From the NCBI RefSeq assembly GCF_037392515.1, contig NC_090283.1, forward strand, positions 38,022,249-38,086,248: a DNA stretch of 64,000 nucleotides, given 5' to 3'. A program made the translations under genes and the position numbers. The notes below the pieces were generated by a model, which saw only the letters and a list, made by a program, of their open reading frames with translations, was not told the origin of the DNA and did no database searches. Source of the DNA: Haliotis asinina (lineage: Eukaryota; Mollusca; Gastropoda; Lepetellida; Haliotidae). This document shows, piece after piece, positions 17,401-59,400 of this stretch (position 1 is the stretch's first letter; the number at the start of each line of letters is the position of its first letter).

Positions 17401-20400
17401 ACTTGATAGATATAGTAGTCTCAGCCTATGGTTGTGCCTTTTGCTAGTTACAGATTTTTGCCATTTATATTTTTTTTGTTTTTCCATGGAACATTTTGGT
17501 GTTAGTCGAATGGTGGGGTGGGCTTCGTTTCCAGAGCAGAACTCAAAAACCGTTCAATATTTTTCTGCAAAACTTGGTAGATGTATCAATCAGGACCTGA
17601 AGTGGTGCCTTTAGCTATGTACAGGTTTTTTGTGATTTATTATTTTCTCGGTTTCCATGGAAACGTCTTGGACTTAGTCTCAAAAGTGAGAGATATGTTT
17701 TGTTTCCGGAGCAGAACTCCAAAACCGTTCAATATTTTTCTGCAAAACTTGTTACATACATCAATCAGAACCTAACGTGGTGCCATTTGGTACATACAGG
17801 TTTCTGTGATGTATTATTTTCTTGGTTTCCATGGAAACATTTCGGACTTAGTATCAAATTGGAGAGATGGGCTTCGTTTCCGGAGCAGAACTAAAAAGCT
17901 GTTCAATATTTTCTGCAAAACTTGGTAGATATATCAATCGGAACCTAAAGTGGCGCCTTTCGCTAGTTACAGGTTTTTGTGATTTCCTAGTTTCTCGGTT
18001 TCCATGGAAAAGATTCAGACTTTGTCTCTGAAGTGAGAGGTGTTTCCTGAGTGGAACTCAAAAACTTCTTAATATCTGTCAGTGTAACTTGGTAGATATG
18101 TGTGGCAGGCCCCAAAGTGGTGCCTTTTGGTTTTTAAAGGTTTTTGTGATGTAATATTTTCTGGGTTTCCATGGAAACGTTTTGGACTTAGTCTCAAAAT
18201 GGAGGGATGGGCTTCGTTCCAACTTGAAAACCATTTCATATCTTTCAACAGATCTTGGCAGATATAAGAGACAGATCTTGAAATTGTGACGTTGCTGATT
18301 ACAGATATATGCCATATATAATTTTCATGAATTCCATGGAAACAATTCAAACTTAGTCTGAAAAAAACAGTGAGTAACTGTAAGATGATTTGTCCTTTCA
18401 AACATGTGGGGGCCGGGGGGATATGTCATCTTCTGAGGACTCTTGTGAAAATAAGCAAATTCCGTGACAGAAAAGTGGCAAATTCTGCACGGATTCTGTA
18501 AGAAAATGTGTTTTCCCCGCACCAGACGTTTTTCTGCATAGAAAGGTAAATTCCGTGATTTTTCTGCAACCACGGAATCCAGGAGGGACTGCATGGTGAT
18601 AGATGTGATGTATTGCTCATCTACCATGTCACATGGTGATAGATGTGATGTTTTGCTTACCTACCATTTCACATGGTGATAGATACAATGTATTACTTGT
18701 CTACCATGTCATTGTCACATGGTGATGGGTACAGTGTATTATTTGTCACATGGTGATAGATATGATATATTTCTTCTATACCATATCGCATTGTGGTAGT
18801 TACGGAGTATTACCTGTCTACCATGTCAAATGGTGGAAGATACAATAGCAGATGAATCTGACAGATGTAATCAAGGGCAGGTAACTGGAGCCGGTGTGAA
18901 CCACAGGAATGGATACTTTCATCAGACTTTTGCTAAATGCTAGCCCTGGTGCTGTAGAGCATAGGTAACTCATTAATGGTGTTTTTACACAGGCCATGCA
19001 GGGAGTGACAGCAGCCATGCAGAAGATGAGGAGGAGGATGTGCAGGGTTTCCTCTTCAACAAACTCAAGTGAGACAAAAAACAGAGAAACATTAAGGACT
19101 TGAGTGTTGGAGCATTACCTGGTTCCCTATATTTGTTGAAGATAAATATCTGTCTGTGTTTTCTTATGTCTTTAAGTGCTCGAACAAAACCAGTGTATAG
19201 TATGATGCTTTTGAAACTCATGCTACAAATGGGAAAGGGATTTTTATCTTGATTCGACAAATCAATCAGTCCAATGTGAGCAGCCTTTCAATATGATATG
19301 TTTGGGACATTCTTTAAACTACTGATTGATGCATGGTAAATAATATTTTTGCAATTAATGTGTAAACAGTTTGTCATTCAATGGATGCATCTCTATTTGA
19401 ATCCCCACATTGTTACAATTTGTGAAGCCAGTTTCTGGTGTTCCCCACCATGATGTTGCTGGAATGTTGCTGAAAGCAATGTAAAACCAAACTCAGTAAG
19501 TCAGTCATTAATGTCCACTGTCACAGATAATATGATGTAAATTCCCTCACACCTGATCCAGTATACATCATAGGTCAAAATGATTCAGTTACTAGAGTGT
19601 ACATCCGTCAAGGACTTTTCTTGTTTAACAGAAAACTGCACCCAGAATTGAAAGACAATCTGAAGGAGTTTCGGGATCATCTGATTGACACAAATGTAGA
19701 GTTAGCTCCCCTTGATGTCTGGCAGTTGCAAGGTGAGTCGTGGTTATCTTATGTGAAATAGTAGTTCATGATAGGTTCATGAGCAATCAGCTATAATTCC
19801 TCAACTGTTTCAGACAAACATAGTGTCATGTGACATACACAGTACACAGTGATAGGGACTACTATAAGGCTATCTCACAGTGGCTGTGAGTATACTGTGT
19901 ATAGTGTAAGGATGTTACAAGGTATCTTTATGAATATGAGTGTTGTGTGTTGTTGGTATGGGAATTGATTGTGTTATATCCCTGGGCCCACAATTGTTTG
20001 ACATGATCGTGGCTTGTGGTTGTATTGTCCCTGGGTCTACAATTGTTTGAGATGACCATGGTTTATGGATGTGTTGTATCTCCTGTACACCTGTTTGACA
20101 TGATCATGGCTTGTGGTTGTGTTTCAGACCTGAGTCTACAGGCAGCACAGCGGGTGTTGTCAGCTCCAACTGAGGATGCCCTCCGAATGCTTATGGATAT
20201 CAGCCAGAACTTCCCCTCACAGACACGGTAACAGTTTCCAAACATTGTAAAGGATGTTTAGCACACCTCCAAGGTGTAACATAACATGTATCGGTACACT
20301 TCCAGGATGTGACATAAGATGTAAAGTATGAGTACATCTCCAGGGTGTGACATAAGATGTAAAGTATGAGTACATCTCCAGGGTGTGACATAAGATGTAA

Positions 20401-23400
20401 AGTATGAGTACACCTCCAGGGTGTGACATAAGATGTAAAGTATGAGTACACCTCCAGGATGTGACATAAGATGTAAAGTATGAGTACACCTCCAGGATGT
20501 GACATAAGATGTAAAGTATGAGTACACCTCCAGGGTGTGACATAAGATGTAAAGTATGAGTACACCTCCAGGGTGTGACATAGGATGTAAAATATGAGTA
20601 CATCTCCAGGATGTGACATAAGATGTAAAGTATGAGTACACCTCCAGGGTGTGACATAAGATGTAAAGTATGAGTACACCTCCAGGATGTGACATAAGAT
20701 GTAAAGTATGAGTACACCTCCAGGATGTGACATAAGATGTAAAGTATGAGTACACCTCCAGGATGTGACATAAGATGTAAAGTATGAGTACACCTCCAGG
20801 GTGTGACATAAGATGTAAAGTATGAGTACACCTCCAGGGTGTGACATAGGATGTAAAATATGAGTACATCTCCAGGATGTGACATAAGATGTAAAGTATG
20901 AGTACACCTCCAGGGTGTGACATAAGATGTAAAGTATGAGTACACCTCCAGGATGTGACATAAGATGTAAAGTATGAGTACACCTCCAGGGTGTGACATA
21001 AGATGTAAAGTATGAGTACACCTCCAGGGTGTGACATAAGATGTAAAGTATGAGTACACCTCCAGGGTGTGACATAAGATGTAAAGTATGAGTACACCTC
21101 CAGGGTGTGACATAGGATGTAAAATATGAGTACATCTCCAGGGTGTGACATAAGATGTAAAGTATGAGTACACCTCCAGGGTGTGACATAGGATGTAAAG
21201 TATGAGTACACCTCCAGGATGTGACATAAGATGTAAAGTATGAGTACACCTCCAGGATGTGACATAAGATGTAAAGTATGAGTACACCTCCAGGGTGTGA
21301 CATAAGATGTAAAGTATGAGTACACCTCCAGGGTGTGACATAGGATGTAAAATATGAGTACATCTCCAGGGTGTGACATAAGATGTAAAGTATGAGTACA
21401 CCTCCAGGGTGTGACATAGGATGTAAAATATGAGTACATCTCCAGGGTGTGACATAAGATGTAAAGTATGAGTACACCTCCAGGGTGTGACATAGGATGT
21501 AAAATATGAGTACATCTCCAGGGTGTGACATAAGATGTAAAGTATGAGTACACCTCCAGGGTGTGACATAGGATGTAAAATATGAGTACATCTCCAGGGT
21601 GTGACATAAGATGTAAAGTATGAGTACACCTCCAGGGTGTGACATAGGATGTAAAATATGAGTGCATCTCCAGGGTGTGACATAGGATGTAAAGTATGAG
21701 TACACCTCCAGGATGTGACATAAGATGTATAGTATGAGTACACCTCCAACATGTGACATAAGATGTAAAGTATGAGTACACGTCCAGGGTCTGACATAAT
21801 ATGTACAGTATGAGTACACCTCCAGGGTGTGACATAGGATGTAAAATATGAGTGCATCTCCAGGGTGTGACATAGGATGTAAAGTATGAGTACACCTCCA
21901 GGATGTGACATAAGATGTATAGTATGAGTACACCTCCAACATGTGACATAAGATGTACAGTATGAGTACACGTCCAGGGTCTGACATAATATGTACAGTA
22001 TGAGTACACCTCCAGGGAGTGACATAAGATGTATAGTATGAGTATGCCTCCAGGATGTGACATAGGATGTACAGTATGGGTACATCTCCAGGGTGTGACA
22101 TAGGATGTATAATATGAGTACACCTCCAGGTGTAACATAAGATGTATAGATACTTATACACATTTGAATCTAGCTTGTTGTGTTGTCACAGATCCCTTGT
22201 GAAGACCAACGTTGACATTAACATAAAGAAGGAAATTCAGAAGAACCAGCAGGTCGGTATGATTGGTGTAATATAGACATTGGGTGGATACAGAGCTTTA
22301 ACTCAGTGTTGCATTGATTGTTATTGGAATCTTGTACTGACATATTGCTACAGAAATTGTTTGAAATGACATTGTCCAGAACTTCGAGGCTGACCACTCC
22401 CTTCTGCCTGGTGATTCTGCTCTGTACTTAAATGGGCTGCCAGTGGACTTGGAAATCTATGACATCTTCTCCCTTCTAGAGGTCATGAGGTCAGAGGCCA
22501 AAGTGCTTGAGGGGCTCCACTCACTTGGCTTCAAGGTCAGTGGAACAAAAATGTACATAGGATCTGTTTTCATTTCAGTTCATCTGAAAATCTGATATCT
22601 TTAGGTCCTGGTGTGATGGTCTAAACAGTTTATTCTCAGAAACCATTGGTCCAAGGAACATGTTGAATTAGTTTCATCTCAAAGATTCTTGCTTTTGTTT
22701 GGCATATTTGCAATCTCCCTATACAAGCTTTCTGTGAGCATCTTCTCACCTGATACTCCCTGACTGAGTAAGCTGTACATGTGGCAAGTGTGTTACTAAT
22801 ACTTTAATACTAGTGCTGACATGGTATTTTTCCAATTAACTTTTAAATTTAGTGTTAGTTTCTTGTCATCCATTTTTGTTCAGATTTGTTTTCATGCTAA
22901 TGGTAACCTAAGAACCAAGCAACAACCAACCAAAAACGTTTGGTATATAACCAGATAAGGTACTGCACACACTTCTACCAGTGTTATCTGAACAAATCTG
23001 TTTGCCATATTTTCTGATGTTAACTTTAATTAGTGTAGCATCTGTATATAAGATTTCCAGCAATGCTGTAGACATGAGGGCATGAAATGTGTGTCTATAT
23101 TGGTCACAGGGGGAGAACCTGCATCGCCTCCTCAACACTGACCTGAAAGGTGGAGATGATAAAAGTTATGCCCTGGACATCCGCCATGGTGCAATACAGG
23201 TACATGCAAGAAAATACTTCACACTGATCACTCATGTCTTGAAAACAATGATGTTTGTGTTTAGAAGGGTCTGGTTGATCCCTAGTAACCTCTGCTGGTA
23301 ACAAGTGCTGAAAGGATTAGATGGGGCGGATAGCTCTTGCTAAGGCAATACAAAATTTCACACTTGATTCGTATAAATCTTATGGCACAGTTGTGCATGT

Positions 23401-26400
23401 AATACTCTCTGTAGCACCACTGTATGCTGCAGTATGTTGCAGTACTATGTGTTGCTTTATTTTGCTGTATGTTGCAGTACTGTATGTTGTATGTTGCAGT
23501 ACTGTATGTTGGTGTATGTTGCAGTGCTGTATGTTGGTGTATGTTGCAGTACTGTATGTAGTTGTATGTTGCAGTACTGTATGTAGTTGTATGTTGCAGT
23601 ACTGTATGTTGTATGTTGCAGTACTGTATGTAGTTGTATGTTGCAGTACTGTATGTTGGTGTATGTTGCAGTGCTGTATGTTGGTGTATGTTGCAGTGTT
23701 GTATGTTGTGTATGTTGCAGTACTGTATGTAGTTGTATGTTGCAGTACTGTATGTTGTATGTTGCAGTGCTGTATGTAGTTGTATGTTGCAGTACTGTAT
23801 GTTGGTGTATGTTGCAGTGCTGTATGTTGGTGTATGTTGCAGTGTTGTATGTTGTGTATGTTGCAGTACTGTATGTTGGTGTATGTTGCAGTACTGTATG
23901 TTGGTGTATGTTGCAGTGCTGTATGTTGGTGTATGTTGCAGTACTGTATGTAGTTGTATGTTGCAGTACTGTATGTAGTTGTATGTTGCAGTACTGTATG
24001 TTGTATGTTGCAGTACTGTATGTAGTTGTATGTTGCAGTACTGTATGTTGGTGTATGTTGCAGTGCTGTATGTTGGTGTATGTTGCAGTGTTGTATGTTG
24101 TGTATGTTGCAGTACTGTATGTTGGTGTATGTTGCAGTACTGTATGTTGGTGTATGTTGCAGTACTGTATGTAGTTGTATGTTGCAGTACTGTATGTAGT
24201 TGTATGTTGAAGTACTGTATGTTGGTGTATGTTGCAGTGCTGTATGTAGTTGTATGTTGCAGTACTGTATGTAGTTGTATGTTGAAGTACTGTATGTTGG
24301 TGTATGTTGCAGTACTGTATGTAGTTGTATGTTGCAGTACTGTATGTTGGTGTATGTTGCAGTACTGTATGTTGTATGTTGCAGTACTGTATGTAGTTGT
24401 ATGTTGCAGTACTGTATGTTGGTGTATGTTGCAGTACTGTATGTTGGTGTATGTTGCAGTACTGTATGTTGTGTATGTTGCAGTACTGTATGTTGGTGTA
24501 TGTTGAAGTACTGTATGTTGGTGTATGTTGCAGTGCTGTATGTTGTGTATGTTGCAGTACTGTATGTAGTTGTATGTTGCAGTACTGTATGTAGTTGTAT
24601 GTTGAAGTACTGTATGTTGGTGTATGTTGCAGTGCTGTATGTAGTTGTATGTTGCAGTACTGTATGTTGTTGTATGTTGAAGTACTGTATGTTGGTGTAT
24701 GTTGCAGTACTGTATGTAGTTGTATGTTGCAGTACTGTATGTTGGTGTATGTTGCAGTACTGTATGTTGTATGTTGCAGTACTGTATGTAGTTGTATGTT
24801 GCAGTACTGTATGTTGGTGTATGTTGCAGTACTGTATGTTTGTGTATGTTGCAGTACTGTATGTTGGTGTATGTTGCAGTACTGTATGTTGGTGTATGTT
24901 GCAGTACTGTATGTAGTTGTATGTTGCAGTACTGTATGTAGTTGTATGTTGAAGTACTGTATGTTGGTGTATGTTGCAGTGCTGTATGTTGGTGTATGTT
25001 GCAGTGTTGTATGTTGGTGTATGTTGCAGTGCTGTATGTTGTATATGTTGCAGTACTGTATGTTGGTGTATGTTACAGTGCTGTATGTAGGTGTATGTTG
25101 CAGTACTGTATGTTGGTGTATGTTGCAGTGCTGTATGTTGGTGTATGTTGCAGTGCTGTATGTTGGTGTATGTTGCAGTGCTGTATGTTGGTGTATGTTG
25201 CAGTACTGTATGTTGGTGTATGTTGCAGTACTGTATGTTGGTGTATGTTGCAGTGCTGTATGTTGGTGTATGTTGCAGTGCTGTATGTAGGTGTATGTTG
25301 CAGTACTGTATGTTGGTGTATGTTGCAGTACGGTATGTTGGTGTATGTTGCAGTGCTGTATGTTGGTGTATGTTGCAGTGCTGTATGTTGGTGTATGTTG
25401 CAGTGCTGTATGTTGGTGTATGTTGCAGTGCTGTATGTTGGTGTATGTTGCAGTACTGTATGTAGTTGTATGTTGCAGTACTGTATGTAGGTGTATGTTG
25501 CAGTGCTGTATGTTGGTGTATGTTGCAGTACTGTATGTTGGTGTATGTTGCAGTACTGTATGTTGGTGTATGTTGCAGTGCTGTATGTTGTGTATGTTGC
25601 AGTACTGTATGTAGTTGTATGTTGCAGTGCTGTATGTAGGTGTATGTTGCAGTACTGTATGTTGGTGTATGTTGCAGTGCTGTATGTTGGTGTATGTTGC
25701 AGTGCTGTATGTAGGTGTATGTTGCAGTGCTGTATGTTGGTGTATGTTGCAGTGCTGTATGTTGGTGTATGTTGCAGTACTGTATGTAGTTGTATGTTGC
25801 AGTACTGTATGTTGGTGTATGTTGCAGTGCTGTATGTTGGTGTATGTTGCAGTACTGTATGTAGTTGTATGTTGCAGTACTGTATGTTGGTGTATGTTGC
25901 AGTACTGTATGTTGTATGTTGCAGTACTGTATGTAGTTGTATGTTGCAGTGCTGTATGTAGGTGTATGTTGCAGTACTGTATGTTGGTGTAGGTTGCAGT
26001 GCTGTATGTTGGTGTATGTTGCAGTACTGTATGTAGTTGTATGTTGCAGTACTGTATGTTGGTGTATGTTGCAGTACTGTATGTTGTATGTTGCAGTACT
26101 GTATGTAGTTGTATGTTGCAGTGCTGTATGTTGGTGTATGTTGCAGTACTGTATGTTGGTGTATGTTGCAGTGCTGTATGTTGGTGTATGTTGCAGTGCT
26201 GTATGTTGGTGTATGTTGCAGTGCTGTATGTAGGTGTATGTTGCAGTGCTGTATGTTGGTGTATGTTGCAGTGCTGTATGTTGGTGTATGTTGCAGTACT
26301 GTATGTTGGTGTATGTTACAGTGCTGTATGTAGGTGTATGTTGCAGTACTGTATGTTGGTGTATGTTGCAGTGCTGTATGTTGGTGTATGTTGCAGTGCT

Positions 26401-29400
26401 GTATGTTGGTGTATGTTGCAGTGCTGTATGTTGGTGTATGTTGCAGTGCTGTATGTTGGTGTATGTTGCAGTACTGTATGTTGGTGTATGTTGCAGTGCT
26501 GTATGTTGGTGTATGTTGCAGTGCTGTATGTAGGTGTATGTTGCAGTACTGTATGTTGGTGTATGTTGCAGTACGGTATGTTGGTGTATGTTGCAGTGCT
26601 GTATGTTGGTGTATCTTGCAGTGCTGTATGTTGGTGTATGTTGCAGTGCTGTATGTTGGTGTATGTTGCAGTGCTGTATGTTGGTGTATGTTGCAGTACT
26701 GTATGTAGTTGTATGTTGCAGTACTGTATGTAGGTGTATGTTGGAGTGCTGTATGTAGGTGTATGTTGCAGTGCTGTATGTTGGTGTATGTTGCAGTGCT
26801 GTATGTTGGTGTATGTTGCAGTGCTGTATGTTGGTGTATGTTGCAGTGCTGTATGTTGGTGTATGTTGCAGTGCTGTATGTTGGTGTATTTTGCAGTGCT
26901 GTATGTAGGTGTATGTTGCAGTACTGTATGTTGGTGTATGTTGCAGTGCTGTATGTTGGTGTATGTAGTACTGTATGTAGGTGTATGTTGCACGTACTGT
27001 AAGATGTGTAGGGTGTATGTTGCAGTGCTGTATGTTGGTGTATGTTGCAGTACTGTATGTAGTTGTATGTTGCAGTACTGTATGTTGGTGTATGTTGCAG
27101 TACTGTATGTGGTGTATGTTGCAGTACTGTATGTAGTTGTATGTTGCAGTGCTGTATGTTGGTGTATGTTGCAGTACTGTATGTAGGTGTATGTTGCAGT
27201 ACTGTATGTTGGTGTATGTTGCAGTACTGTATGTAGGTGTATGTTGCAGTACTGTATGTAGGTGTATGTTGCAGTACTGTATGTTGGTGTATGTTGCAGT
27301 ACTGTATGTTGGTGTATGTTGCAGTGCTGTATGTTGGTGTATGTTGCAGTGCTGTATGTTGGTGTATGTTGCAGTGCTGTATGTTGGTGTATGTTGCAGT
27401 GCTGTATGTTGGTGTATGTTGCAGTGCTGTATGTTGGTGTATGTTGCAGTGCTGTATGTTGGTGTATGTTGCAGTGCTGTATGTTGGTGTATGTTGCAGT
27501 ACTGTATGTTGGGTATGTTGCAGTGCTGTATGTTGGTGTATGTTGCAGTACTGTATGTAGGTGTATGTTGCAGTACTGTATGTTGGTGTATGTTGCAGTG
27601 CTGTATGTTGGTGTATGTTGCAGTACTGTATGTAGTTGTATGTTGCAGTACTGTATGTTGGTGTATGTTGCAGTACTGTATGTTGTATGTTGCAGTACTG
27701 TATGTAGTTGTATGTTGCAGTCTGTATGTAGGTGTATGTTGCAGTACTGTATGTTGGTGTATGTTGCAGTACTGTATGTTGGTGTATGTTGCAGTGCTGT
27801 ATGTTGTTGTATGTTGCAGTGCTGTATGTTGGTGTATGTTGCAGTACTGTATGTTGGTGTATGTTGCAGTGCTGTATGTTGGTGTATGTTGCAGTACTGT
27901 ATGTTGGTGTATGTTGCAGTACTGTATGTTGGTGTATGTTGCAGTGCTGTATGTTGGTGTATGTTGCAGTGCTGTATGTTGGTGTATGTTGCAGTGCTGT
28001 ATGTTGGTGTATGTTGCAGTACTGTATGTTGTATGTTGCAGTCTGTATGTGTTGTTGCAGTACTGTATGTTGGTGTATGTTGCAGTACTGTATGTTGGTG
28101 TATGTTGCAGTGCTGTATGTTGGTGTATGTTGCAGTGCTGTATGTTGGTGTATGTTGCAGTACTGTATGTTGGTGTATGTTGCAGTACTGTATGTTGGTG
28201 TATGTTGCAGTACTGTATGTAGGTGTATGTTGCAGTACTGTATGTGGTGTATGTTGCAGTACTGTATGTAGGTGTATGTTGCAGTACTGTATGTTGGTGT
28301 ATGTTGCAGTACTGTATGTTGGTGTATGTTGCAGTACTGTATGTTGGTGTATGTTGCAGTACTGTATGTTGGTGTATGTTGCAGTACTGTATGTTGGTGT
28401 ATGTTGCAGTGCTGTATGTTGGTGTATGTTGCAGTGCTGTATGTTGTTGTATGTTGCAGTACTGTATGTAGTTGTATGTTGCAGTACTGTATGTTGGTGT
28501 ATGTTGCAGTACTGTATGTAGTTGTATGTTGCAGTACTGTATGTTGGTGTATGTTGCAGTACTGTATGTTGGTATGTTGCAGTACTGTATGTAGTTGTAT
28601 GTTGCAGTACTGTATGTTGGTGTATGTTGCAGTACTGTATGTTGGTGTATGTTGCAGTACTGTATGTTGTGTATGTTGCAGTACTGTATGTATGGTGTAT
28701 GTTGAAGTACTGTATGTTGGTGTATGTTGCAGTGCTGTATGTTGTGTATGTTGCAGTACTGTATGTAGTTGTATGTTGCAGTACTGTATGTTGGTGTATG
28801 TTGCAGTACTGTATGTTGGTGTATGTTGCAGTGCTGTATGTAGTTGTATGTTGCAGTACTGTATGTTGTGTATGTTGCAGTACTGTATGTTGGTGTATGT
28901 TGCAGTACTGTATGTTGGTGTATGTTGCAGTACTGTATGTTGTGTATGTTGCAGTACTGTATGTTGTATGTTGCAGTACTGTATGTAGTTGTATGTTGCA
29001 GTACTGTATGTTGGTGTATGTTGCAGTACTGTATGTTGTGTATGTTGCAGTGCTGTATGTTGTGTATGTTGCAGTGCTGTATGTTGGTGTATGTTGCAGT
29101 ACTGTATGTTGGTGTATGTTGCAGTACTGTATGTAGTTGTATGTTGCAGTACTGTATGTAGTTGTATGTTGAAGTACTGTATGTTGGTGTATGTTGCAGT
29201 GCTGTATGTTGGTGTATGTTGCAGTGTTGTATGTTGGTGTATGTTGCAGTGCTGTATGTTGTATATGTTGCAGTACTGTATGTTGGTGTATGTTACAGTG
29301 CTGTATGTAGGTGTATGTTGCAGTACTGTATGTTGGTGTATGTTGCAGTGCTGTATGTTGGTGTATGTTGCAGTGCTGTATGTTGGTGTATGTTGCAGTG

Positions 29401-47400: not shown

Positions 47401-50400
47401 CATGGACACCATTGTCATGGCAAACCTGGTAAATTATTTCATTCTGTTTGAGTGAATCATTTTGTTTGCCTGTTAGAGAACTTTTATATGAGTAGTCATC
47501 AGTTAACATATCACAGGAAAATACTGATGCATTTTACCTCATTACAGTCATTCTGTTTTGACCAGTGTGATTCAAATTTCAAATACACCCTTGTGAGAGA
47601 ACTGTAAGATCATATTAAAGGTCCGTGATTGGATGATATATGGTGATGGTCTAAGGTCAGGTTATAATGGACTACCTTCTTGACAGTAATTTATTGATAG
47701 AAAATAGCCTCATTTCAGTGCGACTCACATACAAAACTTTGTTGTTTTGGATTATTGATAGGTGTTCTTACATATCTAGTTATTATGTTAATCTTGCCTT
47801 GATAATATACAAGTACTGCAGAAATATTTTGTGACGTGACTCCCTGGAAATGAGTAGTAAGCAGTAGGTTATGCTATGTATTATTGCGCTTGTGTGGTCA
47901 TGAGCGTAGACAAAATGTATGTCAGTTCGATGTTGAAAAGGAGTAGTGTTAATGTGTTATTGAATAGAAATTACTGCTGTCATGTCCATCAGATTATCTC
48001 ACAACTTAAAAAAAGCACTAAACTCATATCTTAGTCTGTGTAACACTGTTATGAAACTGTTGTAGGGTTACTTCCAACTCAAGGCCAACCCAGGAGTGTG
48101 GCAACTGCAGCTGAGAGAAGGGCGCTCCAGGGAGATCTACGACATCAACAGGTCAGTGAACGAAGGTCAAACTGATAGTTACCAGGAGAATGTGCAAGAA
48201 TCATCAATGCATCGACTTCTTTCTTTCCCTGGATGTCAGTATCGTGTTTAACTGTTTCAGTCATGACTTCACAGACACACCCAAGGGTTCCTCTGATGTT
48301 GTGGTTGCCATTAGCAGCTTCAAGAGCAAGATCATCAGGGTCAAGGTGAGATGATCATGTACAATGAAGCCACTTTAGTACTTGCCCTGACAGAGAGTAG
48401 AGCTAGAATATACCATGGCACAGGAATGGATCATTTTGTAGCTTCTAAATGGGCTGCACCAATATGGTATGGTCATACAGGGTTGTTCCCAACATTTGCA
48501 ACATTTGTAGGAGTGATGTAACATATCTTTGTCTGTGTGGATGACATGATAGTTCTGTAGATGACGTGATGGCTCTGTGAGAGGGTGGATAATGTGATGG
48601 TTCTGTGTCTGGGTGGATAATGTGAGGGTTCTGTGCCTGGGTGGATGACATGATGGCTCTGTGTCTGGTTGGGTGACGTGATGGTTGTGTGTCTTGGTGG
48701 ATGACGTGATGGTTCTGTGCCTGTGTGGATGATGTGATTGTTCTGTGGCTGTGTGGATGACGTGATGGTTCTGTGCCAGTGAGAATAATGTGATGGTTCT
48801 GTGGATGATGCGATGGTTGTGTGTGTGGGTGTATGATGTGTTCGTTCTGTGCCTGTGTGGATGATGTGGTGGGTCTTTGGCTGTGTGGATGACGTGATGG
48901 TTCTGTGATTGTGTGGATGATGTGATGGTTCTGTGGATGATGCGATGGTTGTGTATCTGGGTGTATGATGTGTTGGTTCTGTGCCTGTGTGGATGATGTG
49001 ATGGGTCTGTGGCTGTGTGGATGACATGATGGTTCTGTGATTGTGTGGATGATGTGATGGTTCTGTGGATGATGCGATGGTTCTGTGCCTGTGTGGATTA
49101 TGTGTTGGTTCTGTGCCTGTGTGGATGATGTGATGGGTCTTTGGCTGTGTGGATGATGTGTTGGTTCTGTGCCTGTGTGGATGATGCGATGGTTGTGTGT
49201 CTGTGTGGATGATGTGTTGGTTCTGTGCCTGTGTGGATGATGTGATGGGTCTTTGGCTGTGTGGATGATGTGTTGGTTCTGTGCCTGTGTGGATGATGCG
49301 ATGGTTGTGTGTCTGTGTGGATGATGTGTTGGTTCTGTGCCTGTGTGGATGATGTGATGGGTCTGTGTCTTGGTGGATGATGTGTTGGTTCTGTGTCTGT
49401 GTGGATGATGTGTTGGCTCTGTGCCTGTGTGGATGATGTAATGGGTTGTGGCTGTGTGGATGATGTGATGGTTCTGTGGCTGACATTATGGGTCTATGTC
49501 TGGGTGGATGATGTGATGGTTCTGTGCCTGTGTGGATGATGCGATGGTTGTGTGTCTGTGTGGATTATGTGTTGGTTCTGTGCCTGTGTGGATGATGTGA
49601 TGGGTCTTTGGCTGTGTGGATGATGTGTTGGTTCTGTGCCTGTGTGGATGATGCGATGGTTGTGTGTCTGTGTGGATGATGTGTTGGTTCTGTGCCTGTG
49701 TGGATGATGTGATGGGTCTGTGTCTTGGTGGATGATGTGTTGGTTCTGTGTCTGTGTGGATGATGTGTTGGTTCTGTGCCTGTGTGGATGATGTAATGGG
49801 TTGTGGCTGTGTGGATGATGTGATGGTTCTGTGGCTGACATTATGGGTCTATGTCTGGGTGGATGATGTGATGGTTCTGTGTCTGTGTGGATGATGTGAT
49901 GGTTCTGTGATTGTTCTGTGGATGATGTGATGGGTCTGTGGATGATGTGATGGGTCTGTGTCTGTGTGGATGATGTGATGTTTCTGTGGATGATGTGATG
50001 TTTCTGTGGATGATGTGATGTTTCTGTGGATGATGTGATGGTTCTGTGGATGATGTGATGGGTCTGTGGATGACGTGATGGGTCTGTGTCTGGGTGGATG
50101 ACATGATGGTTCTTTGCCCATGTGGATGAGGTGCTGGTTCTATGTCTGTGTGTATGAGGTGCTGGTTCTGTGGCTACTGACCCCAATGCTCTCTGCTGAC
50201 AGGTTTCCAAGAAGGCTGACAAGCAGAAGGAGCAACTGCTGCAGGACTCAGATGAGGGCCAGGGTTTGTGGGATTCCATTTCCAGGTCAGTGGCGTCGTA
50301 TGTTCTGAAGTAAGTACTGTGCTCTCCAGCTGGTGTATTTGTGTGTCCACATAGAGGGCTAGTATGTTTCATCTTGACCTGGTGCATGCTGGAGTAAGTA

Positions 50401-53400
50401 GATGGCTGTGTGTCTGTGTCTGTGTCTGTCTGCAGGACCTCTTGTTGTGTTGTACTGATGGAGATGTGTATAGCAGGATACACTTTAAAGAAATAGATGA
50501 TACCTAAGCCCCACCTGATCCAGAATACAGTAGACTTTCCCTGCTTGACACCCCTAGAAAACTGTGGACAAATCAAGTTGTTGATTAGACTGATCATCTG
50601 TTATTAACAGCATCATGAATGGGTAGACAGATCCAACCTGACATGATGCATCAGTGCATCATCTGCATCCAAAAATGACCAGCTCTAATGACAAGAAGAC
50701 AACTCTACAGAGGCCATGTCATGCAGTAAACAATGGGTGAAAAGAGTGATGTAGAAGGCTATCATTCTCAACAGTCAACCATATATTTTTGGATTTGTTT
50801 GCACAGTGTGATGCGTATCTGTTTGTGTTTGTAATGCTGTCTGTGGGTGGCTTTGATGTGTCATACTGTACTGGTGCATAAAGCTTAAAAGTTGATGTTT
50901 TAGTATTCATTTCCATTTCCCCATTAATCTTCTGAATCATAAGTCTGAACAACAAATTACTTTCCGTTTAAGGAGACTAGTAATATTATGAAACTGAAAA
51001 AAACTGTGTGAAATGAATAGACCACTGGATAAATCAGCTCATGAAATTTGTTCATCATGAATCTGAGAGAACATACCTATATGGTCTCCCAAAGGTTCAT
51101 TAGAGCAGAATGAATTAATTTTAATCAAACGAAAATGTAGGTTATGGTTTCATAAGAATTTGTTTTCTCATGATGTCAAGATTTGACCCATAGCTTGTCA
51201 TGCAACTGAGTGAGACTGAGAGTTGAAGTAATTGTTAAGCTGTAATTCTTGAGCCTGTTTGTAAACAATGAAGGAGTGATCTGATTCCATATGTAGACAA
51301 ATGTGTAGAAAATTTCTGAATCCGATTCTGTGCTTAAAACCACAGACCTTCTGATCTGAAGTTGGACATCTTGTCCATATGACCAAAGAGGTTACCCCAT
51401 CAGCAATCAGACATGGTAAATAGCTGCTATTAGAGTACTTATTTGTATTGAACTTGGCAAGTTGATTCACGGAGATGGAAGATTACACTATCTGACTCGG
51501 TTACCTGAATGCCAGTCAGAGCTACTTCAACCTGTACATGAATACACAGATTGCTGTTCACAGCTAGTATGCTTTCTCTCACCCATCCTCAAGTGAAGGT
51601 TGTAGATTGGATAAAGATACAGCTGGAATTGCTGTAAACTTTCTAACCTATAAAAATGTGGCTACAGTTATGTGACCATAAGTATTTTAGATGTAACTGA
51701 AAGCACAAGAAGGTGACTGAAGGTGACTGACTGAGTGGTTTGGAGTGAAAACTGCCAAAAATGGAGTTTTCATCTAACAGAAAATATCTCCATTAGCTGT
51801 AAGAACAATTATGGTCTAACTACAATCCCCAAGATATCAAGAATGACTAAGTAAAACATATATATGATCATATTATATTTAGTATTGCAACATTTCATTG
51901 TATGTTTCACATGGAAAATAGAACAAAACATATATAGGTCTTGTTGATTAACCTAAGCCTAAGGTAGCCTAAGGTTGACACATGAAGCTGTTTCTTGTTA
52001 GAAAATGCTTTTCATTTATGCAAGATCAAAATCGAAAGTGCAAGTGTAAGAACGGTAGTCAGTCTACTTGTTGCTAAAATGTTGGAAGTTAGGGTAAGCC
52101 TTTTGTCTCTGTCTGTGTGCCCAGGTTTGATGTCCTGTGCTCACGTGGTTGTGGATGTTTATATGTTGTCCACCTTGTCATCTGTTGTGGACATAAACAT
52201 ATTTAAATCATTTGCAAACTTAGTTCAGAGTCAGTGTACATGGTTACTCTCAGTGGATGGTCCATACAATGTATACATGATGACTGCCAGTGATAGCACT
52301 GTAGCAGTATACATTAACATGCTGCCCTATGCAATAAATAAGAAATTGCTATTAAAATACTGCCCTATGCAATAAATAAGAAATTGTTGTTAAAATGCTG
52401 CCCTATGCAATAAATAAGAAATTGTTGTTAAAATGCTGCCCTATGCAATAAATAAGAAATTGTTGTTAAAATGCTGCCCTATGCAATAAATAAGAAATTG
52501 TTGTTAAAATGCTGCCCTATGCAATAAATAAGAAATTGTTGTTAAAATGCTGCCCTATGCAATAAATAAGAAATTGTTGTTAAAATGCTGCCCTATGCAA
52601 TAAATAAGAAATTGTTGTTAAAATGCTGCCCTATGCAATAAATAAGAAATTGTTGTTAAAATGCTGCCCTATGCAATAAATAAGAAATTGCTATTAAAAT
52701 ACTGCCCTATGCAATAAATAAGAAATTGTTGTTAAAATGCTGCCCTATGCAATAAATAAGAAATTGTTGTTAAAATGCTGCCCTATGCAATAAATAAGAA
52801 ATTGTTGTTAAAATGCTGCCCTATGCAATAAATAAGAAATTGTTGTTAAAATGCTGCCCTATGCAATAAATAAGAAATTGTTGTTAAAATGCTGCCCTAT
52901 GCAATAAATAAGAAATTGTTGTTAAAATGCTGCCCTATGCAATAAATAAGAAATTGTTGTTAAAATGCTGCCCTATGCAATAAATAAGAAATTGTTGTTA
53001 AAATGCTGCCCTATGCAATAAATAAGAAATTGTTGTTAAAATGCTGCCCTATGCAATAAATAAGAAATTGTTGTTAAAATGCTGCCCTATGCAATAAATA
53101 AGAAATTGCTATTAAAATGCTGCCCTATGCAATAAATAAGAAATTGTTGTTAAAATGCTGCCCTATGCAATAAATAAGAAATTGTTGTTAAAATGCTGCC
53201 CTATGCAATAAATAAGAAATTGTTGTTAAAATGCTGCCCTATGCAATAAATAAGAAATTGTTGTTAAAATGCTGCCCTATGCAATAAATAAGAAATTGTT
53301 GTTAAAATGCTGCCCTATGCAATAAATAAGAAATTGTTGTTAAAATGCTGCCCTATGCAATAAATAAGAAATTGTTGTTAAAATGCTGCCCTATGCAATA

Positions 53401-56400
53401 AATAAGAAATTGTTGTTAAAATGCTGCCCTATGCAATAAATAAGAAATTGTTGTTAAAATGCTGCCCTATGCAATAAATAAGAAATTGTTGTTAAAATGC
53501 TGCCCTATGCAATAAATAAGAAATTGTTGTTAAAATGCTGCCCTATGCAATAAATAAGAAATTGTTGTTAAAATGCTGCCCTATGCAATAAATAAGAAAT
53601 TGCTATTAAAATGCTGCCCTATGCAATAAATAAGAAATTGTTGTTAAAATGCTGCCCTATGCAATAAATAAGAAATTGCTATTAAAATGCTGCCCTATGC
53701 AATAAATAAGAAATTGTTGTTAAAATGCTGCCCTATGCAATAAATAAGAAATTGCTATTAAAATGCTGCCCTATGCAATAAATAAGAAATTGTTGTTAAA
53801 ATGCTGCCCTATGCAATAAATAAGAAATTGCTATTAAAATGCTGCCCTATGCAATAAATAAGAAATTGTTGTTAAAATGCTGCCCTATGCAATAAATAAG
53901 AAATTGCTATTAAAATGCTGCCCTATGCAATAAATAAGAAATTGTTGTTAAAATGCTGCCCTATGCAATAAATAAGAAATTGCTATTAAAATGCTGCCCT
54001 ATGCAATAAATAAGAAATTGCTATTAAAATACTGCCCTATGCAATAAATAAGAAATTGTTGTTAAAATGCTGCCCTATGCAATAAATAAGAAATTGCTAT
54101 TAAAATGCTGCCCTATGCAATAAATAAGAAATTGTTGTTAAAATGCTGCCCTATGCAATAAATAAGAAATTGCTATTAAAATGCTGCCCTATGCAATAAA
54201 TAAGAAATTGTTGTTAAAATGCTGCCCTATGCAATAAATAAGAAATTGCTATTAAAATGCTGCCCTATGCAATAAATAAGAAATTGCTATCTAATTTTAT
54301 ATATTTTGTATGCTTCATTGCATACATTTGACATAATTTTACATATTATTTGTACATCATTTTATATTCACCTTACTTGTATTTTTAAATGAGGAATTTA
54401 TCTGTCTGTTGGAAACTTTCACATTTACAATGTATCCTGGTCTGTAGTAAAGGCAGTGATGTGAGTATTTCATGCAGTTATCAAGAGACAAGTGAAAATA
54501 TATTGTCAAGATTGAGAAAAGCTTATCAAGTGAAATGAATCATCAGTACAAAAGCACTGTCCAGTTCTGACTACAGAATGATATAACTGAAATTTCTGGG
54601 GCATGTTTCAGCGAGAGCTGCACCAGTATCAGTTTGTAACTGTTTCTGATGTATGATTCTGAAATGTAGACCTGAACAGTAGTTTTCTGTCTATTTGCTG
54701 CAGCTCTTTCACCGGACAGAAATCTGATGAAGATGAAGATGAAACCCTTAACATCTTTTCCCTGGCTTCAGGACATCTGTATGAGAGATTTTTGAGGTAG
54801 GTTGTCATCTTAGCAACAATTAACTCCAGCAGTGGCTCAGTATTAGCAGCAGTTGACACAAGACGTGGCTTAGCATCTGCAGCAATGGTTCAGTATTGGC
54901 CTTAGTTGAAACACAAAGTGGCTTAGTATCTGCAGCAGTGATTCAGTATTAGCTGTACTTAACACAAAAATGGCTTAGCATCAGCAGCAGCTAACTGCAG
55001 TAGTAGTTCAGTATTAGCCGTAGTTGGCACAAGAAGTGCTTTAACATCTGCAAATGAAGAATTGGTTCACCTTTGTTATCAGCATGTACATCATTCATGA
55101 ATTGGCATGTGTAAAGTTTAAGTGGGCGCATTATGAAAATACTAGCGCCTTCAGCATGTATTAGCTGCATGGATATGTTTGATATTTAAATATCCTGTAA
55201 TTGTAATAAAGTTGTGGCTGGACAGCGTAGGATTATTTGTTAGTAATGGACTCGTATGGATGTGGTATGTTCCACCATGAGTGCCTGACTTCACTCACTG
55301 GTAACAAGAGGACATTAAATGTACTTTACCCTGTTACTGTTACTCAGTCATACCCAGAAATGGTTGATGGAGAAAACATACTGATTGTCTACTATGTTTG
55401 CCCGGTTATCTTGCAGAATAATGATGCTGGGTGTGTTGAAAAATACAAAGTCAAAAGTGAAATTCTGGTTTCTGAAAAATTACCTGTCGCCAACGGTAAC
55501 GGTAAGTATAGCCACAGTACAGATAATATAATTCTGTGTTTTGGAGTTCATCTGAGTTGCTTGATCCATTCTATGATAAATACCCTGAACCCATGCTAGG
55601 TCATAATGTTTTCCCAAATGACAAGGAACTGAAAATGGCTATCCAATCAAAAGAGCTCTAGAGAAATCATAGTGATGTATGTATCCAGAGTACAGGTAAA
55701 TAAGAGATATGCACTGTTGCCAGATGACTGGACAAATACCTTGAGCCTTGCATAAATTTTAGTTGAGATTGAAGTCTAGTGATCTATGAAACACTGCTGG
55801 CAAGTGAGAGTTGCCAGTATGTGGCAACATATTTTAGCTACATTTCATACTGAAATTTTGGTTCTGTTGTATAGTTGTATGATGTCTGCTCTTTACAGGA
55901 CTTCATACCACATATGGCCAAGGAGTATGGGTTCGAATATGAGCTCGTGCAGTACAAGTGGCCACGTTGGCTTATACAACAGAAGGAGAAACAGAGAGTT
56001 ATCTGGGGGTGAGTGAGTGGCAGGTTCATTGTGGGTATGCTGGGGGTGAGTGAGTGGCAGATTCATCGTAGGTATTGTGAGGGTGAGTGAGTGGCAGGTT
56101 AATCGTAGGTATTCTGGGGGTGAGTGAGTGGCAGGTTCATTGTGGGTATCCTGGGGGTGAGTGAGTGGCAGATCCATAGTAGGTATCCTAGGGGTGAGTG
56201 AGTGGCAGGTTCATCGTAGGTATCCTGGGGGTGAGTGAGTGGCAGGTTAATCGTAGGTATTCTGGGGGTGAGTGAGCGGCAGGTTCATCGTAGGTATCCT
56301 GGGGGTGAGTGAGTGGCAGGTTCATCGCAGGTATCCTGGGGGTGAGTGAGTGGCAGGTTCATCGTAGGTATCCTGGGGGTGACTGAGTGGAAGGTTCATC

Positions 56401-59400
56401 GTAGGTATTCTGGGGGTGAGTGAGCGGCAGGTTCATCGTAGGTATCCTGGGGGTGAGTGAGTGGCAGATTCATCGTAGGTATTGTGAGGGTGAGTGAGTG
56501 GCAGGTTAATCGTAGGTATTGTGAGGGTGAGTGAGTGGCAGGTTCATCGTAGGTATTCTGGGGGTGAGTGAGCGGCAGGTTCATCGTAGGTATCCTGGGG
56601 GTGAGTGAGTGGCAGGTTCATCGTAGGTATTGTGAGGGTGAGTGAGTGGCAGGTTCATTGTAGGTATCCTGGGGGTGAGTGAGTGGCAGGTTCATCGTAG
56701 GTATCCTGGGGGTGAGTGAGTGGCAGGTTCATCGTAGGTATTCTGGGGGTGAGTGAGCGGCAGGTTCATCGTAGGTATCCTGGGGGTGAGTGAGTGGCAG
56801 GTTCATCGTAGGTATTCTGGGGGTGAGTGAGCGGCAGGTTCATCGTAGGTATCCTGGGGGTGAGTGAGTGGCAGGTTCATCGTAGGTATTGTGAGGGTGA
56901 GTGAGTGGCAGGTTCATCGTAGGTATCCTGGGGGTGAGTGAGTGGCAGGTTCATCGTAGGTATCCTGGGGGTGAGTGAGTGGCAGGTTCATCGTAGGTAT
57001 CCTGGGTATGGGTATTACTGGTAGTAGTAAGTCACACTGATACTAGCACCCTATAGGAGTACAGGGACAGGACCTCATTACAATGTGCTCACAAATGGGA
57101 GAGGTTCATTGTGGGTTGGGAGTGAATATAGAAGCATGAGAGCCTGTGGCTGTGTCCAGTATCATGTGTTTGTCGTCACGGGGAGGTAAGAGCATGGGAA
57201 CCTGTGGCTGACAAACCTGTGTTTGTTGTCATTGGGAGGTAAGGATGGGTTGTCATCACAACCATAACAAATGTGACTGTCAGTTTGTGTCAAGTAGTCA
57301 TTTCTCATTTACTGCTGTCTTTTCTTTCAGATATAAAATCCTGTTTTTGGATGTGCTGTTTCCACTACATGTAAAGAAAATAATATTTGTTGATGCTGAT
57401 CAGGTGAGTTTGACATTTCTCAATACTATTTATAACAGAATTTTGGGCATTGAAATAGGTTTGGTGTAAAGTTTGCAATTCATAATTGGACTGAATCTGC
57501 TGCATTGTAAATAGTGCTTGATTTTTAAAAAGTTACTCTGTCGCTGTAACTTCAGTGAGAAGATTGTTTGACACTGTCTCAGAAGGTAGGAGAACTACAT
57601 ATGACAGTCCTGTTATAAGAAAACTGATTCTTGATTTCAGATTGTGAGAGCAGATTTAAAAGAGCTGTATAACTTAGACTTGGGAGGGGCCCCTTATGGT
57701 TACACACCATTCTGTAGTGATAGGAAGGAGATGGATGGCTTTAGGTAAGTTCTCACCTTCCCAGCTTCTAATCCTGTTCCAACAAATGTTCAAACCTTTG
57801 TCGCCTTTATCAAAGATGCAAGTGGTTCCTTTCTACAATAAAAAATGGGTATCAGAATGTGATCCAGCTGTTTGTAATGTGTATGATGGGAAGTGATTGT
57901 ACAACTTTTGCTCTTCTTTGTTTCAGGTTTTGGAAGTCCGGCTATTGGGCCAGTCATCTTGCCGGCAGGCCATACCATATTAGGTAGTATGCTTCAGTAT
58001 CAGAAGAACTTGGTACACATAGATACTGTTTACAGATACTGTGATTACATTCCTGTAAAATCACTATTGTGTATGTCTTGTATTGTCATTGAAATAAAAG
58101 ACTGTGTGGATAGAAGGTGAAGTTAAAGCTAAGAAACATCTTACATTCAGTTTGTTAAGTTGCGTGAAACATACAGTAGTGGATTTCCATCTGATAAAGC
58201 TGTCTTATTTCCTAACTGCAGTGCCTTGTATGTGGTGGATCTGAAGCGGTTCCGGCATATCGCGGCAGGGGACCGGCTACGAGGACAGTACCAGGGTCTG
58301 AGCCAGGACCCCAACAGTCTTGCCAACCTGGACCAGGATCTGCCCAACAACATGATCCATCAGGTGGCCATCAAGTCCCTGCCCCAGGAGTGGCTGTGGT
58401 GCGAGACATGGTGTTCCACAGAGTCCCTGCAGTATGCCAAGACTATAGATCTGGTCAGTTACTACACTAGCCTAGGTAGATTTAGTCCACGGAGGCCTGA
58501 CAGTATGCCAAGACTATAGATCTGGTCAGTTACTACACTAGCTTTGGTAGATTTAGTCCACCGAGTCCATGCAGTATGGCCCTGGCAGTATGCCAAGACT
58601 ATAGATCGGGACAGTTTCTACACTAGCCTAGGTGGATTTAGTTCTCAGAGCCCATGCGGTATGCCAGTACTATAGATTGGGTCAGTTACTACACTAGCCT
58701 AGGTAGATTAAGTCCTCAGAGCCCATGCGGTATGCCAGTACTATAGATTGGGTCAGTTACTACACTAGCCTAGGTAGATTTAGTCCTCAGAGCCCATGCG
58801 GTATGCCAGTACTATAGATTGGGTCAGTTACTACACTAGCATAGGTAGATTTAGTCCTCAGAGCCCTGGCGGTATGCCATGACTATTGATGTGGTCAGTT
58901 ACCACGCTAACCTCTGTTGACTGAAGAATTTGTCTTCATCAGTGGAATGTAGTCCTCCTAGCTACTGCTGATACTGCATTGCATGAAATTTGTTGTTCTG
59001 TTGACAGTGCAACAACCCACTCACCAAGGAACCTAAGCTGAGTGCTGCCATGAGGATTGTACCAGAGTGGAAAGAATATGATTATGAAATAAAAGTGTTA
59101 TGGGATAGAGTGTATGGAACCAACACTCGACTGCAGACAGAATATGAAGTATCTGATAAACAAAAAGGTATGGAAGCGTTCTTATTTCTTTGGTTGTATC
59201 CCTCAAGGTGAGGCTTGTGAACGTCCTGGTGACAGGGTCACTGGACACGTGGGATGGACAGGGTCAGCTGGTGAAATTGTCTATTACAGATATAGATGCT
59301 CTGGTACAAGTATACATCCTCAGAACATGGTCAGAGCAAGGATTATGTAGGAAATACTGTTCACATATGTAGCAGGGGTGATGGGATAGCCTAGTGGTTA

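Follow-up and report, generated by a model that had tools for sequence, protein, structure and literature searches.

Several tandem arrays in the introns of one gene in the analysed window (64,000 nucleotides of Haliotis asinina DNA) start or end at an exon, with units that resemble the splice site of that exon. The question is whether these arrays derive from the splice junctions and whether their birth must have been directed there. The gene encodes a UDP-glucose:glycoprotein glucosyltransferase (UGGT). Its model was built by splice-aware alignment using human UGGT1 as the guide; it has 45 exons over a wider span, 38 of which are trusted, all 38 within the interval given below. Pfam Glyco_transf_24 (PF18404) gave six matches, all within UGGT and in place on the 3′ exons, and a phmmer search with the joined exon pieces matched UGGT chains in the PDB. 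Exon numbering differs from that of an earlier sequence-only reading, and sites are given by coordinate.

6601 to 59167, + strand: UGGT gene (splice-aware alignment, PF18404 and phmmer)

The 14 intron rows reduce to 11 UGGT arrays once two arrays that insertions had interrupted are each joined up and one that lies inside a retroelement is discarded. Five of the 11 contain the adjoining junction, namely the acceptors at 20128, 31857 and 45421 and the donors after 56008 and 58453. Both types of boundary are duplicated (three acceptors and two donors among five arrays), and the units include 3–39 nt of exon in a relaxed alignment. These junction-containing (mirage) arrays are as follows.

19979 to 20140, + strand: 49-bp mirage array, 2.9 copies, containing acceptor 20128 and 13 nt of exon (TRF limits 19979–20120)
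23458 to 31859, + strand: 25-bp mirage array, 339 copies, ending in acceptor 31857 with 3 nt of exon
44783 to 45439, + strand: 36-bp mirage array, 17.5 copies, with acceptor 45421 and about 19 nt of exon in a gapped alignment (TRF end 45414)
37821 to 37939, + strand: detached part of the 36-bp array, across a retroelement insertion from the main part
55997 to 57006, + strand: 37-bp mirage array, 27 copies, with the donor after 56008 and 12 nt of exon (TRF start 56003)
58415 to 58913, + strand: 70/71-bp mirage array with the donor after 58453 and at most 39 nt of exon (TRF start 58426)

The sequence-only reading had reported at least four exon-adjoining UGGT arrays whose units contain or resemble a splice site. 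TRF recovered all four, the relaxed alignment places the junction inside each, and a fifth (acceptor 20128, 49 bp, 2.9 copies) had been overlooked. The similarity of unit and splice site, proposed there for comparison with shuffled controls, withstood that comparison: for each of the five units the score against its own junction was reached by 0 of 200 shuffled units, and in relaxed alignments by none of 165 other junctions from four genes. The splice signal is largely retained in the copies: AG is present in 337 of 339 acceptor copies of the 25-bp array, and donor copies carry the signal in 27/27 cases in the 56008 array and 6/7 in the 58453 array. The claim that the arrays derive from real splice junctions is supported, and it is the outermost copy from which the conserved protein is obtained. 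The human guide and the generic splice matrix might raise the suspicion that the resemblance is due to chance or that the gene model is wrong; given the shuffle and junction scores, exons that follow the guide right up to the junctions and the Pfam placement of the 3′ exons, such an explanation is hardly credible.

Six arrays (A, B, D, G, H and I) are without a junction, and all six were absent from the sequence-only account. For three of them (D, G and I) the edges lie 18–27 nt from a junction in the relaxed alignment.

16280 to 18711, + strand: 40-bp array (16280–16530 and 18592–18711) enclosing a 173-bp array (17356–18218), without junction
20294 to 22146, + strand: 38-bp array, 49 copies, without junction; relaxed edge 18 nt from the donor after 20227
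48556 to 50172, + strand: 28-bp array, without junction; relaxed edge 27 nt from acceptor 50203
52314 to 54286, + strand: 38-bp array, 52 copies, without junction; nearest junction 417 nt away
54827 to 54990, + strand: 53-bp array, 3.1 copies, without junction; relaxed edge 27 nt from the donor after 54796

The same architecture was found in nearby genes, where the junction is contained in two of three COG3 arrays, one of two RHBDD1 arrays and the single array of an ankyrin-type gene. The RHBDD1 case is at a two-copy stage, with a unit of 101 bp. The third COG3 array (exon 22, 50 bp) is a degraded candidate, matched in a gapped alignment by 1 of 500 shuffles and by none of 82 other acceptors, and was scored as not covering the junction. 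On another chromosome (C1) we took 14 arrays with three copies of the donor motif AGGTRAGT; six adjoin a predicted coding exon whose end lies in the unit (NDUFS2, MTO1, HIRA, an APH-domain gene, an SH3 gene and one further exon). What the units contain, where the junction lies and the fact that donors as well as acceptors are involved, in more than one gene and also on a second chromosome, were observed directly.

We interpret the arrays, with a probability of roughly 0.78, as mirage-type minisatellites: products of ordinary tandem duplication and array growth that are tolerated across junctions since the outermost site would still give a normal mRNA. A short tandem duplication would by chance straddle an exon–intron border, giving a unit composed of the exon end, the splice site and some intron. 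The array would then expand as any minisatellite does, presumably via slippage or unequal exchange. The copy beside the body of the exon should still be spliced correctly into a normal mRNA, and because of this the surplus copies would be treated as intron and the duplication would be nearly neutral. Unit–junction matches far above those of shuffled units and of the 165 other junctions support the mirage reading, as do the arrays of like build in the nearby genes and on C1.

The sequence-only reading knew of no described mechanism that predicts the pattern; this no longer holds, as the mirage minisatellites of amphioxus have the same arrangement. They are described as lying across exon–intron borders, whether 5′ or 3′, in Adh3, troponin C, the globins BflGb6 and BflGb9, and PGBD5, with AG/GT signals in the units and splicing reported as regular (PMC3087553, PMC3902484). 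This precedent, in which the accounts give no sign of disturbed splicing, counts in favour of our interpretation. The border-spanning repeats and the AG/GT within the units are shared with the UGGT arrays; in the amphioxus accounts units are of 10–72 and 150–160 bp (25–101 bp here) and BflGb6 has 3–6 copies (up to 339 here). The present arrays occur in another animal, five in one gene and in several genes, and are known from the DNA of one assembly. Ordinary intronic VNTRs have similar unit lengths and homogeneity, and the 25-bp unit is likewise locus-specific, found at 85% identity or above only at its own locus among the matches listed; unlike them, the mirage unit includes the splice junction and the end of the exon.

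Selection could produce the same picture if arrays arose anywhere and those overlapping a junction were kept, or if selection favoured decoys weaker than the outer site in use. One array gives a hint of this: among 337 copies the used acceptor 31857 has the highest score (2.6, the runner-up reaching 1.7, with a generic matrix), and it departs from its unit in the pyrimidine tract. The donors speak against selection for the outermost site: in the 56008 array 26 of 27 copies, counting the used donor itself, equal or exceed its score, and one of the six other copies in the 58453 array equals the used donor there. With no positive reason for keeping such arrays apparent, we regard selection as quite improbable.

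The other proposal, that array birth is directed to the borders between exons and introns, where breaks, R-loops or the start of re-replication might act, was examined against a null model of uniform birth. For UGGT alone, 2.8 of the 11 arrays are expected to contain a junction and five do (P = 0.093); the argument that the coincidences by themselves imply a junction-directed process is not supported. Across 19 arrays in five genes the excess is modest (nine observed, 4.9 expected, P = 0.017), with flanks that were entered by hand and are approximate, those of RHBDD1 and the ankyrin-type gene being estimated; 24 arrays of a UNC93A-like gene, most of whose exons have no model, were excluded. 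Edges within 30 nt of a junction are also in excess (14 against 7.8 expected among the 19 arrays, P = 0.0004, at a cut-off chosen post hoc). Most array-bearing introns are short once the arrays are subtracted, and under the uniform-birth model much of the coincidence arises because the ancestral introns were short.

Splice-motif arrays were also counted per motif, by eye from the listed rows as distinct arrays, against backwards-motif controls. No excess was seen for donor motifs (ratio 1.00, 95% CI 0.46–2.16) or acceptor motifs (0.66, 0.39–1.11), the intervals being wide and compatible with about a two-fold bias; this too speaks against a junction-directed process. The donor control comprised 17 arrays, with an opposite-strand pair 2.6 kb apart taken as two (as one: 16, ratio 1.06), and the acceptor control 29, with two such pairs each taken as one (separately: 31, ratio 0.61, P = 0.053). 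Totals of raw triple matches (2260 against 1819 for donors, 1833 against 1967 for acceptors) are dominated by large arrays and were set aside.

A predicted exon adjoins 6/14 donor arrays, compared with 4/24 single AGGTRAGT motifs (Fisher 0.127) and 0/40 in a second set (Fisher 0.0001), or 4/64 pooled (P = 0.0016). This comparison favours the arrays, as the threshold for accepting a predicted exon (total 15, coding 7) was fixed after the array loci had been seen and array loci were permitted more donors per locus than single sites. Of the 64 single sites, 40 were drawn from the first 100 listed places and are confined to the end of C1 (0.08–1.97 Mb), which makes them a poor control. A rarer motif pattern for spreading the control sites was dropped, its matches being mostly dispersed repeats.

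Targeted birth gains from these excesses and from the arrays on both flanks of the MTO1 exon; against it stand the motif counts, the six of 11 UGGT arrays that lack a junction and the 27 introns of CLTC, none of which holds an array with units of at least 12 bp in at least three copies. We consider it unlikely. Array birth looks random or near-random with respect to junctions, perhaps with a two-fold bias; the excess over uniform birth and the exon-adjoining donor arrays hint at a real bias, and a junction-directed process is weakly supported. It is conceivable, and in our view rather doubtful, that minisatellite birth in this genome is mildly biased, about two-fold, to junctions through a lesion linked to transcription or splicing, and that mirage arrays are a main route of intron growth in more than one phylum.

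The arrays might instead be traces of introns gained when exonic AGGT segments were duplicated in tandem (the Rogers model), a process which, as described for ATP2A1 and potato RdRp, likewise duplicates DNA bearing splice signals. AG or GT and exon ends do lie inside the duplicated segments here. The authors of the amphioxus globin account propose that mirages can seed introns, and minisatellites with units of about 30 bp at exon–intron boundaries of human genes in segmental duplications are described as altering exons or as associated with new introns and alternative transcripts (PMC2812944); that account, as far as it is available, does not state that the unit originated from the junction itself, unlike our reading. 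Intron gain would derive both splice sites from copies of one segment, which is the case for 0/7 arrays scored at both ends: in all seven the opposite intron end is unlike the unit, with 13 to 155 of the 165 other junctions scoring at least equally (COG3 exon 23 was left out, and the ankyrin-type gene was scored at its candidate acceptor only). The arrays make no new intron; one end of an existing intron has been copied many times. Intron gain is accordingly very improbable.

If the host is a mollusc, mirage arrays are no peculiarity of lancelets, since several genes of an animal from a distant phylum carry them too. Such arrays leave tens to hundreds of decoy splice sites next to the used one and offer a simple account of harmless intron lengthening. 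They also provide natural test cases for splice-site choice, the used acceptor or donor having almost identical copies beside it that can number in the hundreds. A strand asymmetry was noted as well, with G exceeding C on the sense strand in 12 of 12 UGGT array pieces, yet in 13 of 24 in the UNC93A-like gene; it was not used in the analysis.

UGGT was modelled on the plus strand of the window (C4:38,022,249-38,086,248 in a genome of 1.14 Gb; C1, C2 and C4 are chromosomes) by splice-aware alignment to an approximate human UGGT1 sequence. The model has 45 exons, of which 38 are trusted; the seven weak exons were excluded ahead of the array, junction and birth-test counts. Pfam Glyco_transf_24 gave six matches in the 3' exons of UGGT and none elsewhere among the matches listed. 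TRF returned 44 rows in the window. The 14 array rows within UGGT introns were reduced to 11 arrays by merging two insertion-split arrays and dropping one array internal to a retroelement, and five of these 11 contain their own abutting junction.

UGGT arrays containing their own junction (plus strand, window coordinates)
Acceptor 20128: 49 bp unit, 13 nt of exon in the unit
Acceptor 31857: 25 bp unit, 3 nt of exon in the unit
Acceptor 45421: 36 bp unit, about 19 nt of exon (gapped alignment)
Donor after 56008: 37 bp unit, 12 nt of exon in the unit
Donor after 58453: 71 bp unit, 39 nt of exon in the unit

The sequence-only reading had placed at least four UGGT arrays at splice sites, and the four it named were borne out (acceptors 31857 and 45421, donors after 56008 and 58453); the 49 bp array at acceptor 20128 was absent from its list. 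The resemblance of unit to splice site that it proposed also held against shuffled controls: for all five units, the score was reached by 0/200 shuffled units and by 0/165 other junctions from four genes. We regard the origin of such arrays from splice junctions as real. Tested against all junctions, five of the six remaining UGGT units had a best match other than their own junction, and the 173 bp unit had no junction match in the relaxed-alignment comparison. Among the 113 matches listed for the 25 bp unit, identities of at least 85% were confined to its own locus; off-locus identities were 67-76%, with one short match at 80%.

The sequence-only reading also knew of no described mechanism that predicts this pattern. 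That view is not supported: UGGT-type arrays are mirage minisatellites, in which the unit carries its own exon end, splice junction and intron, an already-known kind found here in a genome too large to be that of amphioxus, which is about 0.5 Gb. Among the papers listed in a literature search on 'mirage' minisatellites were two amphioxus reports (PMC3087553, PMC3902484) and no others on the subject; the PGBD5 paper, one of these two, gives troponin C and PGBD5 as further cases. In a nematode review, 'mirage' denotes a transposon. Human minisatellites at exon–intron boundaries may give rise to novel introns, according to one study (PMC2812944), and the accessible text on earthworm metallothionein reports intronic minisatellites and describes no junction origin. 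The Rogers model of intron gain, as set out in a potato intron-gain paper, was considered and does not fit UGGT-type arrays. The mechanism is most likely ordinary tandem duplication plus array growth, and the arrays would be tolerated because the outermost junction remains functional.

Splice sites were scored with a generic matrix. On this scale the used acceptor 31857 scores 2.6, and the runner-up among 337 AG-bearing copies scores 1.7. In the 56008 array, 26/27 donor copies (the used one counted) match or exceed the score of the used donor. Besides its used donor, the 58453 array has six copies: one with an equal score, four with lower scores and one that lacks GT. Decoy sites in the arrays are therefore not weak in general.

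Neighbouring genes were surveyed for 100 kb either side of the window. COG3 (Pfam COG3_C) has three arrays, two with junctions and the third a degraded candidate.

Junction-containing repeats in neighbouring genes
COG3, exon 23 donor: unit reaches 43 nt into the exon (relaxed alignment)
COG3, acceptor of exon 13: 11 nt of exon
Ankyrin-type gene: 35 bp x 171, donor and 22 nt of exon in the unit
RHBDD1: two-copy duplication of 101 bp (93% matches) across an acceptor, 34 nt of exon

Ankyrin repeats were matched by Pfam in the exon neighbouring the array-adjoining one, which itself had no Pfam match. The gene that we take to be RHBDD1, from the guide sequence used, has a Pfam rhomboid domain; its second array contains no junction. 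In clathrin heavy chain, modelled with 28 exons on C1, there are two 2-copy repeats (42-44 bp), and no unit of at least 12 bp forms an array of three copies; occurrence of the feature is therefore patchy across genes.

Donor-motif arrays were defined by an exact AGGTRAGT occurring three times, 20-50 bp apart. The 100 matches listed extend to 64.20 Mb on C1 and were grouped by eye into 14 distinct arrays. At their 5' edges, six adjoin a predicted coding exon and include part of the exon end in the unit; for the other eight, no predicted exon exceeded the pass mark.

C1 arrays adjoining predicted exons
L038: 21 nt of exon in unit; Pfam Complex1_49kDa, above cut-offs
L043: 39 nt of exon in unit; Pfam APH, weak
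L044: 7 nt of exon in unit; Pfam SH3, weak
L045: 27 nt of exon in unit; Pfam Hira, above cut-offs
L046: 23 nt of exon by TRF edge; Pfam GIDA, above cut-offs
L047: 12 nt of exon in unit; without Pfam support

From their Pfam families we take L038, L045 and L046 to be NDUFS2, HIRA and MTO1; L043 and L044 are tentatively ACAD10/11 and RIM-binding protein. The MTO1 exon is flanked by arrays on both sides (L046 positions 71-353 and 462-751) whose units carry its acceptor and donor, and 5' of the exon the repeat stops exactly at AG. Elsewhere in the genome, judged on matched letters only, arrays at C2:44582147 and C2:100017194 have a pyrimidine-rich stretch and AG fused directly to GTAAGT, the arrangement of recursive splice sites. 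Numerous loci among the 100 matches listed carry AGGTGAGTATATTGCAG or AGGTAAGTCTCCTGCAG, so donor-like motifs are present in dispersed repeats.

Whether array birth is directed to junctions, as the sequence-only reading suspected, was addressed in three ways. In the first, each array was collapsed to one unit and placed at random in the remaining intron, using 19 arrays from five genes and leaving out the 24 arrays of an UNC93A-like gene. Junctions were contained in 9/19 arrays versus 4.91 expected (P 0.017), in 8/16 versus 4.60 without three 2-copy repeats (P 0.034) and in 5/11 versus 2.82 for UGGT alone (P 0.093). Array edges lay within 30 nt of a junction in 14 cases versus 7.82 (P 0.0004), with the cut chosen post hoc. 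In the second, motifs read backwards served as controls. Donor-motif arrays numbered 14 versus 17 among the matches listed for the same C1 stretch, and single motifs 82,247 versus 100,004 genome-wide, a rate ratio of 1.00 (0.46-2.16). For the acceptor motif TTTYCAG there were 36 arrays versus 29 (C1 up to 94.13 Mb) and 639,782 singles versus 337,961, a ratio of 0.66 (0.39-1.11); alternative grouping of adjacent rows gave 1.06 for donors and 0.61 for acceptors. These ratios pool true and chance motifs, and set arrays from part of C1 against singles from the whole genome. In the third, a predicted coding exon lay at the 5' edge of 6/14 arrays versus 0/40 single motifs (P 0.0001), all 40 from a chromosome end, and versus 4/24 single motifs in 264 kb (P 0.127); the predictor recovers 55/79 known internal exons, and its pass mark was fixed after the arrays were seen. 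Overall, the evidence for a preference of array birth for junctions is weak and inconsistent.

Within UGGT intron 37679-45420, the 36 bp array is split in two by a presumably DIRS-like retroelement of ~6 kb (37924-44204), whose two ends bear similar ORF text, inverted relative to each other. Since the element separates its two parts, the array seems to predate the insertion. Near-identical ORF text, partly resembling this element, occurs at 8769-11010 and 11494-13736, ~2.7 kb apart in a single UGGT intron. UGGT forms a head-to-head pair with the UNC93A-like gene (C4, minus strand, window -49.7 to 4.0 kb), and 24 arrays lie in the interval examined for the latter. G exceeds C on the sense strand in 12/12 UGGT array pieces (16280-58913), in 13/24 arrays of the UNC93A-like gene and in 30/42 overall.
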